Source: Shinella fusca
GTDB taxonomy: Bacteria; Pseudomonadota; Alphaproteobacteria; Rhizobiales; Rhizobiaceae
Assembly: GCF_014203155.1 (NCBI RefSeq)
Contig: NZ_JACHIK010000005.1
Span: 1 to 64,000, forward strand
Reading direction: 5' to 3'
Length of the DNA: 64,000 nt
In this document: one piece after another, positions 31,272-35,324 of the stretch
Layout: every line of letters starts with the position of its first letter
Numbering within the stretch: the stretch's first letter is position 1
Position numbers and translations under genes: made by a program
The notes under the pieces: model-generated
Database searches by the model: none
What the model saw: only the letters and a program-made list of their open reading frames with translations
Told to the model about the DNA's origin: nothing

Positions 31272-31359
31272 TGAGGATCGAACAAAGACACGCTGGCCCG
31301 TGCCCTACGCGAGACCGCGCGGGCGGGCCGATTGGGCCACGTGCCCGGAAGGAACGACC

Positions 31360-32349
31360 ATGTCCGCCCGCCCCGCTTCCTCGCGTCACGTCAAGGTGCT
31401 GATCATCGGCTCCGGCCCGGCCGGCTATACCGCCGCGATCTATACCGCCCGCGCCATGCTGGAGCCCGTGCTGATCGCCGGCATGGAACAGGGCGGCCAG
31501 CTCATGATCACCACGGATGTGGAGAACTATCCGGGCTATGCCGATCCGGTGCAGGGTCCGTGGATGATGGAGCAGATGCTCAAGCAGGCGAGCCATGTCG
31601 GCGCCGAGATCGTCAACGACCTCGTGACGAATGTCGATCTCGACGTGCGTCCCTTCCGCATCTCCACCGACAGCGGCACCGAATGGACCGCGGACGCGCT
31701 CATCATCGCGACGGGCGCCAAGGCCAAGTGGCTCGGCATCGAGACCGAGCACACGTTCATGGGCTTCGGCGTCTCGGCCTGCGCGACCTGCGACGGCTTC
31801 TTCTACCGCAACAAGGACGTCATCGTGGTCGGCGGCGGCAATTCGGCGGTGGAAGAGGCGCTCTACCTTTCCAACCTCGCAAAGACGGTCACCGTCGTGC
31901 ATCGCCGCGATTCCTTCCGCGCGGAAAGAATCCTGCAGGAACGCCTGTTCGCCAAGGAGAACGTCAAGGTCGTCTGGGACCATGAGGTCGTCGAATATCT
32001 CGGCGCCGAGGCAAAGCCCCCGATGCCGGCCTCCGTCAACGGCGTGAAGCTGCGCAACGTCAAGACCGGCGAGACGCGCGACATGGTCACGGACGGCGTC
32101 TTCGTCGCCATCGGCCATGCACCGGCGGTCGAGCTCTTCAAGGGCAAGCTGCGCCAGAAGCCGAACGGCTACCTCTGGACCGCGCCCGATTCCACCGCGA
32201 CCGACGTGCCGGGCGTTTTTGCCGCAGGCGACGTCACGGACGACATCTATCGCCAGGCGGTCACGGCCGCCGGCATGGGCTGCATGGCGGCCCTTGAAAC
32301 CGAAAAATACCTTGCAGGTCATATGCCTGTCGCAATTGCGGCCGAGTAG
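31360..32349 (+). CDS. trxB: Thioredoxin reductase
   Basis: An NADPH-dependent flavoenzyme that reduces thioredoxin. The 329 residues from ATG 31360 follow an AAGGAACG site. FAD binding is at GSGPAGYTAAIYTARA, the redox disulfide at ACATCDG, NADPH binding at VVGGGNSAVEEA, and the C-terminal FAD segment at GVFAAGDVTDDIYRQ. An lsrB-like LysR gene follows 113 bp downstream. Confidence 0.97.
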   Translation: MSARPASSRHVKVLIIGSGPAGYTAAIYTARAMLEPVLIAGMEQGGQLMITTDVENYPGYADPVQGPWMMEQMLKQASHVGAEIVNDLVTNVDLDVRPFRISTDSGTEWTADALIIATGAKAKWLGIETEHTFMGFGVSACATCDGFFYRNKDVIVVGGGNSAVEEALYLSNLAKTVTVVHRRDSFRAERILQERLFAKENVKVVWDHEVVEYLGAEAKPPMPASVNGVKLRNVKTGETRDMVTDGVFVAIGHAPAVELFKGKLRQKPNGYLWTAPDSTATDVPGVFAAGDVTDDIYRQAVTAAGMGCMAALETEKYLAGHMPVAIAAE

Positions 32350-32462
32350 AAGCCGCCAACAAAGGGCGGCGGACCCGGTCCGACCGCCCGTGTGGGAACA
32401 GTTCAATCAGCGACCGGGCGGGAAGCGTGCGCTCCCCGCCTCACAGACATATGGGGGATAGA

Positions 32463-33359
32463 ATGGCGCTCGACTGGGACAAGCTGCGGATTTTCCACGC
32501 CGCGGCCGAGGCCGGCTCCTTCACGCATGCGGCCGACAAGCTGCACCTTTCGCAATCGGCCATCAGCCGCCAGGTGAGCGCCCTGGAGCAGGATGTCGGC
32601 ATCAAGCTGTTCCACCGCCATGCCCGCGGCCTCATCCTCACCGAGCAGGGCGAAATCCTCTACCGCACCGCGCACGACGTGCTGATGAAGCTCGAAAGCG
32701 TGCGCGTGCAGCTCACGGAGAACACCGAGAAGCCGAGCGGCAAGCTGCGCATCACCACCACGGTCGGCCTCGGCCAGGGCTGGCTGACCGACAAGGTGCA
32801 GGAATTCCTCGCGCTCTATCCCGACATGCAGGTGCAGCTCATCCTCGACAACGAGGAGCTGGACGTGAACATGCGCCATGCCGACTGCGCCATCCGCCTG
32901 CGCGAGCCGCAGCAGTCCGACCTCATCCAGCGCCGGCTCTTCACCGTGCACATGCACATCTACGCCGCGCCCTCCTACATCAACCGCTACGGCGAGCCGC
33001 AGTCCATCGACGACCTCGACGGCCACAAGATCATCACCTTCGGGGAGCCGGCGCCGAGCTACCTGCTCGACGTCAACTGGCTGGAGATCGCCGGACGCGA
33101 TTCCGACAATCCCCGCCCCTCGGTGCTGCAGATCAACAGCCAGACCTCGATCAAGCGGGCCTGCCTACTCGGCATCGGCATCGCGATGCTGCCGGACTAT
33201 ATTGTCGGGCGCGATCCGGGACTTATCCAGCTCCCCGTCAGCGCCGACATTCCTTCGTTCGATACCTATTTCTGCTATCCCGGCGAGATGAAGAACTCGG
33301 CGAAACTGAAGGTCTTCCGCGACTTCATCGTCGCCAAGGCACGCAACTGGAACTTCTGA
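32463..33359 (+). CDS. lsrB: LysR-type regulator, LsrB/VtlR-like
   Basis: A 298-residue LysR regulator with the winged helix ALDWDKLRIFHAAAEAGSFT and LSQSAISRQVSALE at its N-terminus. Its place directly downstream of trxB and upstream of two AbcR-like small RNAs matches LsrB of Sinorhizobium and VtlR of Brucella/Agrobacterium. Those proteins activate abcR2 and affect LPS and host interaction. The start at 32463 follows GGGGGATAGA. The symbol is assigned from similarity and gene order, not from a database hit. Confidence 0.82.
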   Translation: MALDWDKLRIFHAAAEAGSFTHAADKLHLSQSAISRQVSALEQDVGIKLFHRHARGLILTEQGEILYRTAHDVLMKLESVRVQLTENTEKPSGKLRITTTVGLGQGWLTDKVQEFLALYPDMQVQLILDNEELDVNMRHADCAIRLREPQQSDLIQRRLFTVHMHIYAAPSYINRYGEPQSIDDLDGHKIITFGEPAPSYLLDVNWLEIAGRDSDNPRPSVLQINSQTSIKRACLLGIGIAMLPDYIVGRDPGLIQLPVSADIPSFDTYFCYPGEMKNSAKLKVFRDFIVAKARNWNF

Positions 33360-33415
33360 CGGGCGGCTTTGCACAGTCCTGCGCCATGCGCATGGCTGGC
33401 ATGCGCATTAAATGA

Positions 33416-33444
33416 TTGCCATATGCCCGCGAAAGCATCATATC
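33416..33444 (+). promoter_or_regulatory. Promoter of the first AbcR-like sRNA
   Basis: TTGCCA (33416-33421), 17 bp, CATATC (33439-33444). The same CATATC -10 stands at the equivalent place before the second sRNA. Confidence 0.5.
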
Positions 33445-33449
33445 GCCCG

Positions 33450-33571
33450 CAGCTGATGCATTTTGGTGGCTTTTTCCTCCCAGTGCCACCGCAGCAGCTG
33501 TTCCCCTCTGGAGGTTTTATTACCTTCAAAACTATAAAGGGCCCAAGTTGATCTTGCGGCCCTCTTTTTTT
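33450..33571 (+). ncRNA. AbcR-like small RNA, first copy (alpha-r15 family)
   Basis: The segment contains cctcccagtgcc, then gttcccctctggaggtt, then a terminator whose stem (AGGGCC / GGCCCT, inner CAAG / CTTG) is followed by seven T at 33565-33571. The same three blocks recur in the same order 214 bp downstream. Tandem AbcR1/AbcR2 sRNAs of this build lie in the Agrobacterium and Sinorhizobium lsrB/vtlR region and repress ABC transporter mRNAs through a motif that pairs near ribosome sites. No protein reading frame with a ribosome site fits. The 5' end is estimated from the -10. Which copy is AbcR1 or AbcR2 is not assigned. Confidence 0.82.
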
Positions 33572-33630
33572 GCCTTCCGTTGACCGGAACGAAATTTTCA
33601 CCATTCCGGCAAAACACGGCAAACCCATCC

Positions 33631-33660
33631 CTTGAAGACACGCCCTTGCTTGCCCATATC
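33631..33660 (+). promoter_or_regulatory. Promoter of the second AbcR-like sRNA
   Basis: CTTGAA (33631-33636), 18 bp, CATATC (33655-33660), placing the start near 33667. Confidence 0.5.
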
Positions 33661-33666
33661 TAGGAC

Positions 33667-33786
33667 AGCCAGCGCAGTGCGGTCTTTCTCCTCCCAGTGC
33701 CGCGCGTTGGCTGTTCCCCTCTGGAGGTTCTTTAGCCTTCAACCTAGCAGGGCCCAGGCTTTCGCTTGTGGCCCTCTTTTTTTGCC
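33667..33786 (+). ncRNA. AbcR-like small RNA, second copy (alpha-r15 family)
   Basis: About 120 nt with the same modules as the copy at 33450-33571: ctcctcccagtgcc, ctgttcccctctggaggttc, and a terminator AGGGCC / GGCCCT (33749-33754 with 33770-33775) followed by T at 33777-33783. The regions between the modules differ, as expected for paralogous sRNAs with conserved target-pairing loops. The 5' end is estimated. Confidence 0.82.
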
Positions 33787-33818
33787 CATGCCCCTTGCAT
33801 CGGCAAGCGTCGATCCCA

Positions 33819-33838
33819 ATATCGCTATCTAACGATAT
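33819..33838 (+). promoter_or_regulatory. Inverted-repeat operator before the ArsR-type gene
   Basis: ATATCG (33819-33824) and CGATAT (33833-33838) form a perfect 6-6 dyad with an 8-bp spacer. A -10-like TATACT (33836-33841) overlaps its right arm, and the regulator starts 24 bp after the dyad. This fits autorepression by the dimeric ArsR-type protein. Confidence 0.6.
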
Positions 33839-33862
33839 ACTCATCGCCGGATCACGATAAAC

Positions 33863-34168
33863 ATGAGCCCGACCGACACCGACGAAATCCTCAAAGCCCT
33901 CGCCCATCCCAGGCGGATGGAAATCCTCGCCTGGCTGAAGGAGCCCGAGCGGCATTTCGCCGGTCAGGAGCATCCCCTGGAATTCGGCGTGTGCGCCGGA
34001 CAGATCGAAAAGCGCTGCGACCTCTCGCAGTCGACCGTTTCCGCCCATCTCGCCACCCTCCAGCGCGCCGGCCTCGTGACGACGCGCAAGGTCGGCCAAT
34101 GGGTGTTCTTCAAGCGTGACGAGGAAGCGATCGCCGCCTTCCTCCAGCACATCAACGGCGCCCTCTAG
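33863..34168 (+). CDS. ArsR-family winged-helix regulator
   Basis: A 101-residue regulator with ILKALAHPRRMEILAWL and the recognition helix CDLSQSTVSAHLATLQRAGLV. Two cysteines, C44 (FGVCAGQ) and C52 (EKRC), lie just before and at the start of the DNA-reading helices. There is no classical ELCVC arsenic site. It starts 34 bp before the OYE reductase gene and is preceded by a dyad operator. The two cysteines could sense electrophiles or oxidants; this is an inference from position and the OYE partner. Confidence 0.87.
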   Translation: MSPTDTDEILKALAHPRRMEILAWLKEPERHFAGQEHPLEFGVCAGQIEKRCDLSQSTVSAHLATLQRAGLVTTRKVGQWVFFKRDEEAIAAFLQHINGAL

Positions 34169-34202
34169 GCGCCCCTCCTCCCAGCCAGAAGAAGGACCAT
34201 CC

Positions 34203-35324
34203 ATGACCTCGCTCTTCGATCCCATCGTCATCGGCGACATCCAGCTCGCCAACCGCATCGTCATGGCGCCGCTGACGCGCAACCGCTCCCCGGGCGCCGT
34301 GCCGAACACGCTGAACGCCGCCTATTACGAGCAACGCGCCTCGGCCGGCCTCATCATCACGGAAGGCACGCCCATCACCCAGCAGGGCCAGGGCTATGCC
34401 GACGTGCCGGGCCTCTATACGCCGGAAGCGCTCGCCGGCTGGAAGCAGGTCACAGACGCCGTCCACAGGGCCGGCGGCAAGATCGTCACGCAGATGTGGC
34501 ATGTCGGCCGCATCTCGCACGAGAGCCTGCAGCCGAACGGCGGCAAGCCGGTCGCCCCGTCCGCCATCCGCGCCCAGTCCAAGACCTACCTCATCAACGC
34601 CGACGGCAGCGGCGCCTTCGCGGAAACCTCCGAGCCCCGCGCCCTCGAGCGTGACGAGCTTGCCGGTATCGTCGGGGATTACCGCCGCGCCGCCCGCGCC
34701 GCCATCGAGGCCGGCTTCGACGGCATCGAGATCCACGCCGCCAACGGCTACCTCATCGACCAGTTCCTGCGCTCGGGCAGCAACCGGCGCACCGACGACT
34801 ACGGCGGCTCCATCGAGAACCGCGCCCGCTTCCTCTTCGAGGTCGTCGAGGCGATCACGAAGGAAATCGGCGCCGGCCGCACGGCGATCCGCATCTCGCC
34901 CGTCACGCCCGCCAACGACGCCTTCGACCCCGATCCGCAGCCGCTCTTTACCCATGTGGTCGAGGGCCTTGCCCGCTACGGCCTTTCCTATGTCCACGTC
35001 ATCGAAGGCGCGACGGGCGGGCCCCGCGACTACCAGCAGGGCGACAAGCCCTTCGACTATGCCGCCCTTCACGCCGCCTATCGCGCGGCCGGCGGCAAGG
35101 CGGGCTGGATGGTCAACAACGGCTACGACCGAGACCTCGCCCTCGATGCCGTTTCCAGCGGCAGGGCCGACCTCGTCGCCTTCGGCAAGCTCTTCATCGC
35201 CAACCCCGACCTGGTGAAGCGCCTGAAGGAGGACCTGCCGCTCAACACGCCGGACAAGGACACCTTCTACGGCGGCGGCGCCAAGGGCTATACCGACTAT
35301 CCGGCGCTGGAGAATGTGGCCTGA
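34203..35324 (+). CDS. nemA: Old yellow enzyme family alkene reductase
   Basis: A 373-residue FMN-dependent, NAD(P)H-using ene-reductase of the NemA/OYE type. The TIM barrel starts with LFDPIVIGDIQLANRIVMAPLTR. The substrate-binding area has HAANGYLIDQFLRSGSN, followed by RTDDYGGSIENRARF. The C-terminal GRADLVAFGKLFIANPDLV binds FMN phosphate. Such enzymes reduce activated alkenes, maleimides and nitro-esters. The gene is co-transcribed with the ArsR-type regulator, which probably controls it. Confidence 0.93.
   Translation: MTSLFDPIVIGDIQLANRIVMAPLTRNRSPGAVPNTLNAAYYEQRASAGLIITEGTPITQQGQGYADVPGLYTPEALAGWKQVTDAVHRAGGKIVTQMWHVGRISHESLQPNGGKPVAPSAIRAQSKTYLINADGSGAFAETSEPRALERDELAGIVGDYRRAARAAIEAGFDGIEIHAANGYLIDQFLRSGSNRRTDDYGGSIENRARFLFEVVEAITKEIGAGRTAIRISPVTPANDAFDPDPQPLFTHVVEGLARYGLSYVHVIEGATGGPRDYQQGDKPFDYAALHAAYRAAGGKAGWMVNNGYDRDLALDAVSSGRADLVAFGKLFIANPDLVKRLKEDLPLNTPDKDTFYGGGAKGYTDYPALENVA

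Follow-up and report, generated by a model that had tools for sequence, protein, structure and literature searches.

A tandem pair of AbcR-type small RNAs with differing predicted promoters beside an LsrB/VtlR-like regulator in a Shinella-like genome

The stretch of DNA analysed here, 64,000 nucleotides from Shinella fusca that we call the window, contains the gene order trxB-lsrB-abcR1-abcR2-arsR (Table 1). The lsrB gene lies directly downstream of trxB, and downstream of the sRNA pair there is, besides arsR, a gene for an old-yellow-enzyme-type reductase (PF00724) that scores just below the cut-off of the N-ethylmaleimide reductase model. An earlier note, made from the sequence alone, had placed two repeated segments next to an LsrB/VtlR-like regulator: Both ar15-type segments are indeed found there, and their T-runs end at 33571 and 33783 as that note gave. 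The tandem repeat thus stands, but the repeat spacing of 214 bp does not, since the starts of the shared block, 33500 and 33713, lie 213 bp apart; the AGGGCC of the terminator begins at 33538 in the first and at 33749 in the second copy. An open reading frame of 344 codons on the minus strand (33275-34309) spans both segments; this protein-coding reading was set aside because the ar15 model accounts for the full length of each segment.

Table 1. Features of the trxB-lsrB-abcR1-abcR2-arsR locus in the window.
Feature	Position	Strand	Basis
trxB, thioredoxin-disulfide reductase	31354..32349	+	TIGR01292, 392.6 bits, above cut-off
start region of lsrB translation; contains ATGGGGGATAGAATG, which is complementary to AbcR aSD2; predicted feedback site	32433..32468	+	duplex -17.9 kcal/mol
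lsrB/vtlR, LysR-type regulator, 298 aa	32463..33359	+	PF00126 and PF03466
LsrB/VtlR box GCATGGCTGGCAT (GCAT-N3-TG-N3-T), -61 to -49 of AbcR1	33390..33402	+	sequence; consensus from PMC7486931 and PMC8844928
AbcR1 sigma-70-type promoter: TTGCCA (33416-33421), N17, CATATC (33439-33444)	33416..33444	+	by eye
AbcR1 (ar15) sRNA gene	33451..33571	+	RF02345, 103 bits; start from the Rfam model, end from the T-run
AbcR1 aSD1 seed TTCCTCCC, loop of stem-loop 1	33474..33481	+	mean unpaired probability 0.97
AbcR1 aSD2 seed TTCCCCTC, linker of stem-loops 1 and 2	33501..33508	+	mean unpaired probability 0.99
AbcR1 intrinsic terminator (AGGGCC...GGCCCT, T-run)	33538..33571	+	sequence, predicted fold
AbcR2 RpoH1-type promoter CTTGAA-N16-CCCATAT	33631..33659	+	1 mismatch to published consensus
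AbcR2 (ar15) sRNA gene	33667..33783	+	RF02345, 80.5 bits; start from the Rfam model, end from the T-run
AbcR2 aSD1 seed CTCCTCCC	33688..33695	+	mean unpaired probability 0.91
AbcR2 aSD2 seed TTCCCCTC	33714..33721	+	mean unpaired probability 0.98
AbcR2 intrinsic terminator	33749..33783	+	sequence, predicted fold
ArsR-family regulator flanking the sRNA pair, as in Agrobacterium and S. meliloti	33863..34168	+	NF033788, 70.4 bits, above cut-off

The assignment of both segments to the AbcR RNAs, which the earlier note had made dependent on a match to the AbcR model, is borne out by a covariance search with the Rfam family ar15 (RF02345): Both match over the full model length and far above the gathering cut-off of 40 bits, with 103 bits for copy 1 and 80.5 bits for copy 2 (E-values over the whole window 1.6e-20 and 7e-15, respectively). 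For each RNA three stem-loops are predicted, including the intrinsic terminator, and none of 200 shuffles of either RNA folds as well (z -4.63 for AbcR1 and -4.26 for AbcR2). Given these E-values and folds better than those of all shuffles, the segments are not due to chance. Moreover, compensatory changes (one or more) occur at 6 of the 26 consensus pairs in an alignment of 12 ar15 copies. Two segments, aSD1 in the 5' loop, which we take to be the same site as the motif called M1, and aSD2 in the linker, are predicted to be single-stranded in both RNAs (mean unpaired probability 0.91-0.99). The two RNAs have the same aSD2 segment, their aSD1 segments show a single base difference, and 94 of the 124 aligned columns are identical overall. 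In a tree of 191 ar15 copies, support is weak and the history of the copies is not resolved; the window AbcR2 falls into a clade of 11 second copies, AbcR1 and the third copy of this genome (see below) into the large remainder. The pair is of the known AbcR1/AbcR2 type, and it extends a well-studied module to a Shinella-like genome.

The neighbouring regulator had been taken for an LsrB/VtlR-like protein, and three features agree with this: its identity to Sinorhizobium proteins, trxB upstream, and a published cysteine pair. The protein shares 99% of its residues with the Shinella kummerowiae counterpart, and its identity to the proteins encoded at this position in loci named Sinorhizobium is 90-92%; 80 named LsrB relatives with 89-99% identity were kept for comparison. 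Its cysteines 142, 234 and 271 have the same spacing as C144, C236 and C273 of A. tumefaciens LsrB, with an inferred numbering offset of two, and C144 and C273 have been described as a pair in that protein (PMC11975290). The corresponding pair C142/C271 is present in all 80 loci, including four in which the match begins at residue 3. Based on the identity, the place downstream of trxB and the cysteine spacing, we take the neighbour to be an lsrB/vtlR orthologue and the genome to be Shinella-like.

The two RNA genes differ in what lies in front of them. The earlier note had assigned a CATATC -10 element to both copies: The element is present before both, but there is no single promoter type, as the spaced elements of copy 2 are of the RpoH1 type. 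AbcR1 is preceded by an exact LsrB box, and AbcR2 by CTTGAA-N16-CCCATAT, one mismatch away from the RpoH1 consensus CTTGAA-N16-CCTATAT (PMC8844928). In S. meliloti, the LsrB box (GCAT-N3-TG-N3-T) of the abcR1 promoter is reported to span -61 to -49, and the abcR2 promoter to be of the RpoH1 type (PMC8844928). To see how common this arrangement is, ar15 cores were sought by an exact-core rule within about 3 kb downstream of lsrB in the 80 named loci: At least two cores follow lsrB in 76 loci, one in three, and none in one. Among first copies, 41 of 76 have an exact LsrB box in the expected position, as compared to 9 of 76 second copies (chance 29/15,200; the second-copy count leaves out L065 and L102, where box matches lie outside the expected place). 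An RpoH1-type promoter with at most three mismatches precedes 64/76 second copies versus 7/76 first copies (chance 99/3,000). If all 79 first copies are considered, the box is exact in 44 and has one mismatch in 35, with the chance rate covering the exact rule only. In the 12 loci named Shinella, the exact box is found at every first copy, and all 11 second copies have an RpoH1 match with one or two mismatches. As judged from these motifs, the split between an LsrB box at the first and an RpoH1-type promoter at the second copy is widespread among the named lsrB loci, and the two-promoter design of the module is thus widely kept.

Some loci depart from this scheme. The nine box-bearing second copies all belong to Rhizobium-type loci (L099, L101, L105, L109-L113 and L115). 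None of them has an RpoH1 match within five mismatches; in the same loci the first copy also carries an exact box in eight of nine cases, and the seven first copies that have a three-mismatch RpoH1 match all come from these nine loci. It is possible, from the motifs, that the second copy has switched its promoter class in Rhizobium-type loci. In Ferirhizobium litorale (L097:4050-4700), four ar15 cores follow lsrB in a row, three of them with an exact LsrB box. In another genome (G010 C7; L126, L127), the pair is split in an insertion-like manner, with abcR1 next to lsrB and abcR2 next to arsR about 2.8 kb apart.

Our work makes it very probable that the locus encodes two tandem trans-acting AbcR/alpha-r15 sRNAs, each with its own promoter and terminator, which would silence alike under different conditions. 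We infer that both are transcribed in this organism: LsrB, encoded just upstream, would activate AbcR1 via the box at -61 to -49, and transcription of AbcR2 would depend on RpoH1, a sigma factor of the heat-shock type. Nearly the same pair of CU-rich seeds is predicted to lie open in each RNA, and these most likely pair with the ribosome-binding sites of mRNAs for ABC transporters and metabolic proteins, so that translation would be blocked; Hfq probably takes part. As the seeds are nearly the same and the promoters differ, the two RNAs would exert much the same silencing under different conditions. In S. meliloti, the AbcR mechanism has been shown experimentally and Hfq binding has been reported (PMC8844928). 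The control of S. meliloti AbcR1 by LsrB is disputed, however: One study reports dependence on LsrB (PMC8844928), whereas northern blots in another were unchanged (PMC7486931). For A. tumefaciens, VtlR is reported to control AbcR1 but not AbcR2 (PMC7486931).

Candidate targets in this genome were sought among transporter genes. The starts of 32 genes for substrate-binding proteins were compared with 59 control starts, taken from 41 dehydrogenase and 52 LysR matches by keeping the best 30 of each (59 of 60 gave a usable start); for PF13458, the 6 of 17 matches below the cut-off were left out. With aSD2 of AbcR1, the mean pairing energy was -11.41 versus -8.73 kcal/mol (p=1e-3), for start codons that were chosen by a script favouring Shine-Dalgarno-like sites; with aSD1 of AbcR1, the substrate-binding-protein starts again paired better (p=3e-4). 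For either seed, none of 50 permuted seeds reached the difference between the two groups. Against dehydrogenases alone the effect is weaker (p=0.03 for aSD2 and aSD1 of AbcR1, 0.057 for aSD1 of AbcR2). In addition, a perfect-seed target pattern gave six matches versus none for the reversed control. By eye, three of them belong to an ABC-permease-like start (L138), an L,D-transpeptidase-like gene (L136) and a membrane protein (L141), and the other three are followed by short frames (24 to 68 residues). Because of the gene calls by eye and the three short frames, this pattern is not our main evidence.

Pairing of this kind also hints at an addition to the explanation just given, i.e. that the AbcR RNAs silence lsrB itself in a negative feedback loop, a prediction that we regard as rather doubtful. 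Across the 80 loci, the lsrB start region pairs with aSD2 at a mean of -14.72 kcal/mol as compared to -7.70 for trxB, with trxB starts picked by a script and with an assumed lsrB start two codons late in four loci, since the match begins there at residue 3. Relative to the 16S tail the values are -4.93 for lsrB and -0.02 for trxB (Wilcoxon p=4e-12, which overstates independence because the loci are related). One of 43 other genes of the window pairs better than lsrB, which is unsurpassed when the 16S tail is the reference; among the 91 starts compared in this genome, lsrB, which is one of the control genes, ranks third for aSD2. On the other hand, the G-run of lsrB may be a plain Shine-Dalgarno sequence, it is predicted to be 0.39 unpaired in leader folds versus 0.53 for the trxB site (77 loci each), and in the window leader, folded by itself, it is paired with a C-run further upstream (z 0.34). 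As to pairing in cis as a reason for the conservation of the G-run, the fold of the window leader alone pairs the two runs, and the covarying hairpin found in 15 leaders lies upstream and excludes the G-run. Located at 32416-32440, in front of the lsrB start, this hairpin has compensatory changes among the 15 related leaders, and it is unlike an ordinary terminator because no T-run follows. In the literature searched, a feedback between LsrB and AbcR1 was not found, and neither "feedback" nor "lsrB mRNA" occurs in the main text of the paper on S. meliloti targets. Two candidates for a prior report were set aside: By its title and passages, PMC10746234 deals with feedback between NtrBC and NfeR1, and the sole use of the word in PMC7143759 is in a reference title.

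A further question is how AbcR1 and AbcR2 divide their work. The earlier note had suggested overlapping but distinct targets, with diverged flanks giving each RNA its own set of mRNAs. The one-base difference in aSD1 and the roughly one quarter of aligned columns that differ in the rest of the RNAs (94/124 identical) speak for such a division, as does livK of S. meliloti, reported as a target specific for AbcR1 (PMC7143759). However, aSD2 is the same in the two RNAs, and it is their promoter types that differ, as they do in many other loci; moreover, the target sets in S. meliloti are described as large and overlapping, and specificity there has been argued to come largely from differential expression (PMC8844928). 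The two promoter types of the window fit this expression-based specificity, and we consider a division mainly by targets improbable. Even less credible is the idea that AbcR1 alone is functional and AbcR2 a decaying duplicate: The lower family score (80.5 vs 103 bits) and an A. tumefaciens abcR2 deletion that altered only eight genes (PMC7486931) would suit it, but AbcR2 has kept its fold, both seeds, the terminator and a promoter with one mismatch to the RpoH1 consensus, 76 of the 80 loci keep at least two copies, and the weak A. tumefaciens AbcR2 has tentatively been blamed on a missing M1 (PMC7486931), whereas the window AbcR2 carries CTCCTCCC.

Two similar silencers under separate control, the reading that we prefer, do not exhaust the family in this genome. 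The earlier note saw two ar15 genes, but the genome holds three in total. The third (C2:205162-205273; L006:6163-6278) scores 113.3 bits and is preceded, at -61 to -49, by an exact LsrB box. It lies on a 477-kb contig, and its neighbours resemble, by eye, a Rieske-type dioxygenase gene on one side and pncB on the other; about 2.4 kb further on there is a gene for a LivK-like binding protein (PF13458, L148). Third ar15 copies are not new, since a review counts three in S. meliloti (PMC7143759). In 21 genomes of the genus we found 3 to 6 ar15 matches each, 73 in total, 31 of them dispersed. Thirty of these were examined (L128, with 47.7 bits and without an exact core, was dropped, and L021 and L033 are not among the 30 as they come from other genera): The LsrB box is exact in 26, has one mismatch in three and two mismatches in one, and an RpoH1-type promoter with at most three mismatches precedes none of the 30. 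Their upstream flanks of about 1.4 kb form 16 groups by DNA similarity (again without L021 and L033), a number that diverged flanks could inflate; the dispersed copies are therefore not all in one conserved place. Among 151 genomes of the family, 114 have an ar15 match, 99 of them above the cut-off, and box plus core at the right distance occur in 77 versus one for the reversed pattern.

In the genome studied here, the pattern GCATRGCTGNNNTGC occurs five times versus once for the reversed control. Two of the five sites belong to AbcR1 and the third copy, one to an ar14 (NfeR1-family) RNA, and two have no RNA family next to them. The ar14 RNA (L135:1501-1720; C24:3387 in the genome) scores 97.3 bits with the LsrB box in front, as expected from the control of NfeR1 by LsrB demonstrated in S. 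meliloti (PMC10746234). The box matches at C3:96283 and C9:7733, which precede protein-like genes and show no RNA family at an E-value of 0.1, were discarded as probably due to chance. Control of the extra ar15 copies by LsrB is a prediction from the motif. In the portions of the literature searched, no description of an LsrB box on extra ar15 copies was found, and a search for "AbcR3" returned papers that by title concern SARS-CoV-2. A published survey of the alpha-r families may cover the plasmid copies.

Plasmids carry the same arrangement. With the third ar15 copy and its promoter as query, 398 of 72,556 plasmid records match at least part of the cassette, at 422 places in all. The match covers 80% or more of the query in 331 records, and conjugative plasmids account for 275 of the 398 by their typing. 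Of 12 examined among 25 listed plasmid records, all with at least 94% cover, 11 have the exact LsrB box and the remaining one a box with a single mismatch. The ar15 gene on pSymA of S. meliloti 1021 scores 94.2 bits, with GCATAGCTGTATT at -60. On R. tropici pRtrCIAT899a and R. rhizogenes pRiA4 (L241, L245), ar15 is located between genes of the DEAD/DEAH helicase family and of the ParB type. A 5.1-kb phage-labelled record from human faecal samples (MT838570.1:1641-1727) is 80% identical over 22% of the ar15 query and may be a bacterial fragment. It is tempting to propose, tentatively and as an idea that we think somewhat more apt to fail than to hold, that box, promoter, AbcR gene and terminator form a cassette of less than 200 bp that spreads as a unit and is borne by rhizobial plasmids, many of them conjugative. 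An arriving plasmid would then add a further copy of a host sRNA, controlled by the redox regulator LsrB of the host, and raise the dose of nutrient-uptake silencing. LsrB would command scattered siblings (AbcR1, the third copy, the plasmid copies and the ar14 RNA), AbcR2 would have been handed to RpoH1, and the shared seed would possibly feed back on lsrB translation. If the plasmid copies are transcribed, plasmids would adjust the nutrient uptake of their host via the host's own regulator, and the copy on pSymA of S. meliloti 1021 makes this idea testable in a model strain. The picture that emerges is a testable one: sibling sRNAs in multiple copies, which occur on hundreds of plasmids as well and, in most of the cases examined, carry the box of a single transcription factor.

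Several known systems resemble the one described here. NfeR1 (alpha-r14) is also an sRNA with aSD motifs that is activated by LsrB via a related box (PMC10746234, PMC8844928), but it differs in its Rfam family (RF02344), in having three identical aSD motifs and in being reported without Hfq interaction. In Brucella abortus, AbcR1 and AbcR2 are sibling RNAs that control ABC-transporter genes, as proposed here; VtlR is described to activate abcR2, and the two genes reside on different chromosomes, unlike the tandem of the window (PMC7486931, PMC4211561, PMC5461406). A. tumefaciens shares the order trxB-vtlR-abcR1-abcR2-arsR with the window, but its AbcR2 is described without motif M1, whereas both window copies have the aSD1 core (PMC7486931). 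The AbcR1/AbcR2 pair (alpha-r15) of S. meliloti is likewise a tandem beside lsrB and arsR (PMC3712013, PMC8844928), with three stem-loops, aSD1 and aSD2, the same box position and the same RpoH1-type AbcR2 promoter as in the window. The two organisms belong to different genera, and their additional ar15 copies are placed differently: on pSymA in S. meliloti 1021, and on the 477-kb contig with its dioxygenase-like and pncB-like neighbours in the genome of the window.
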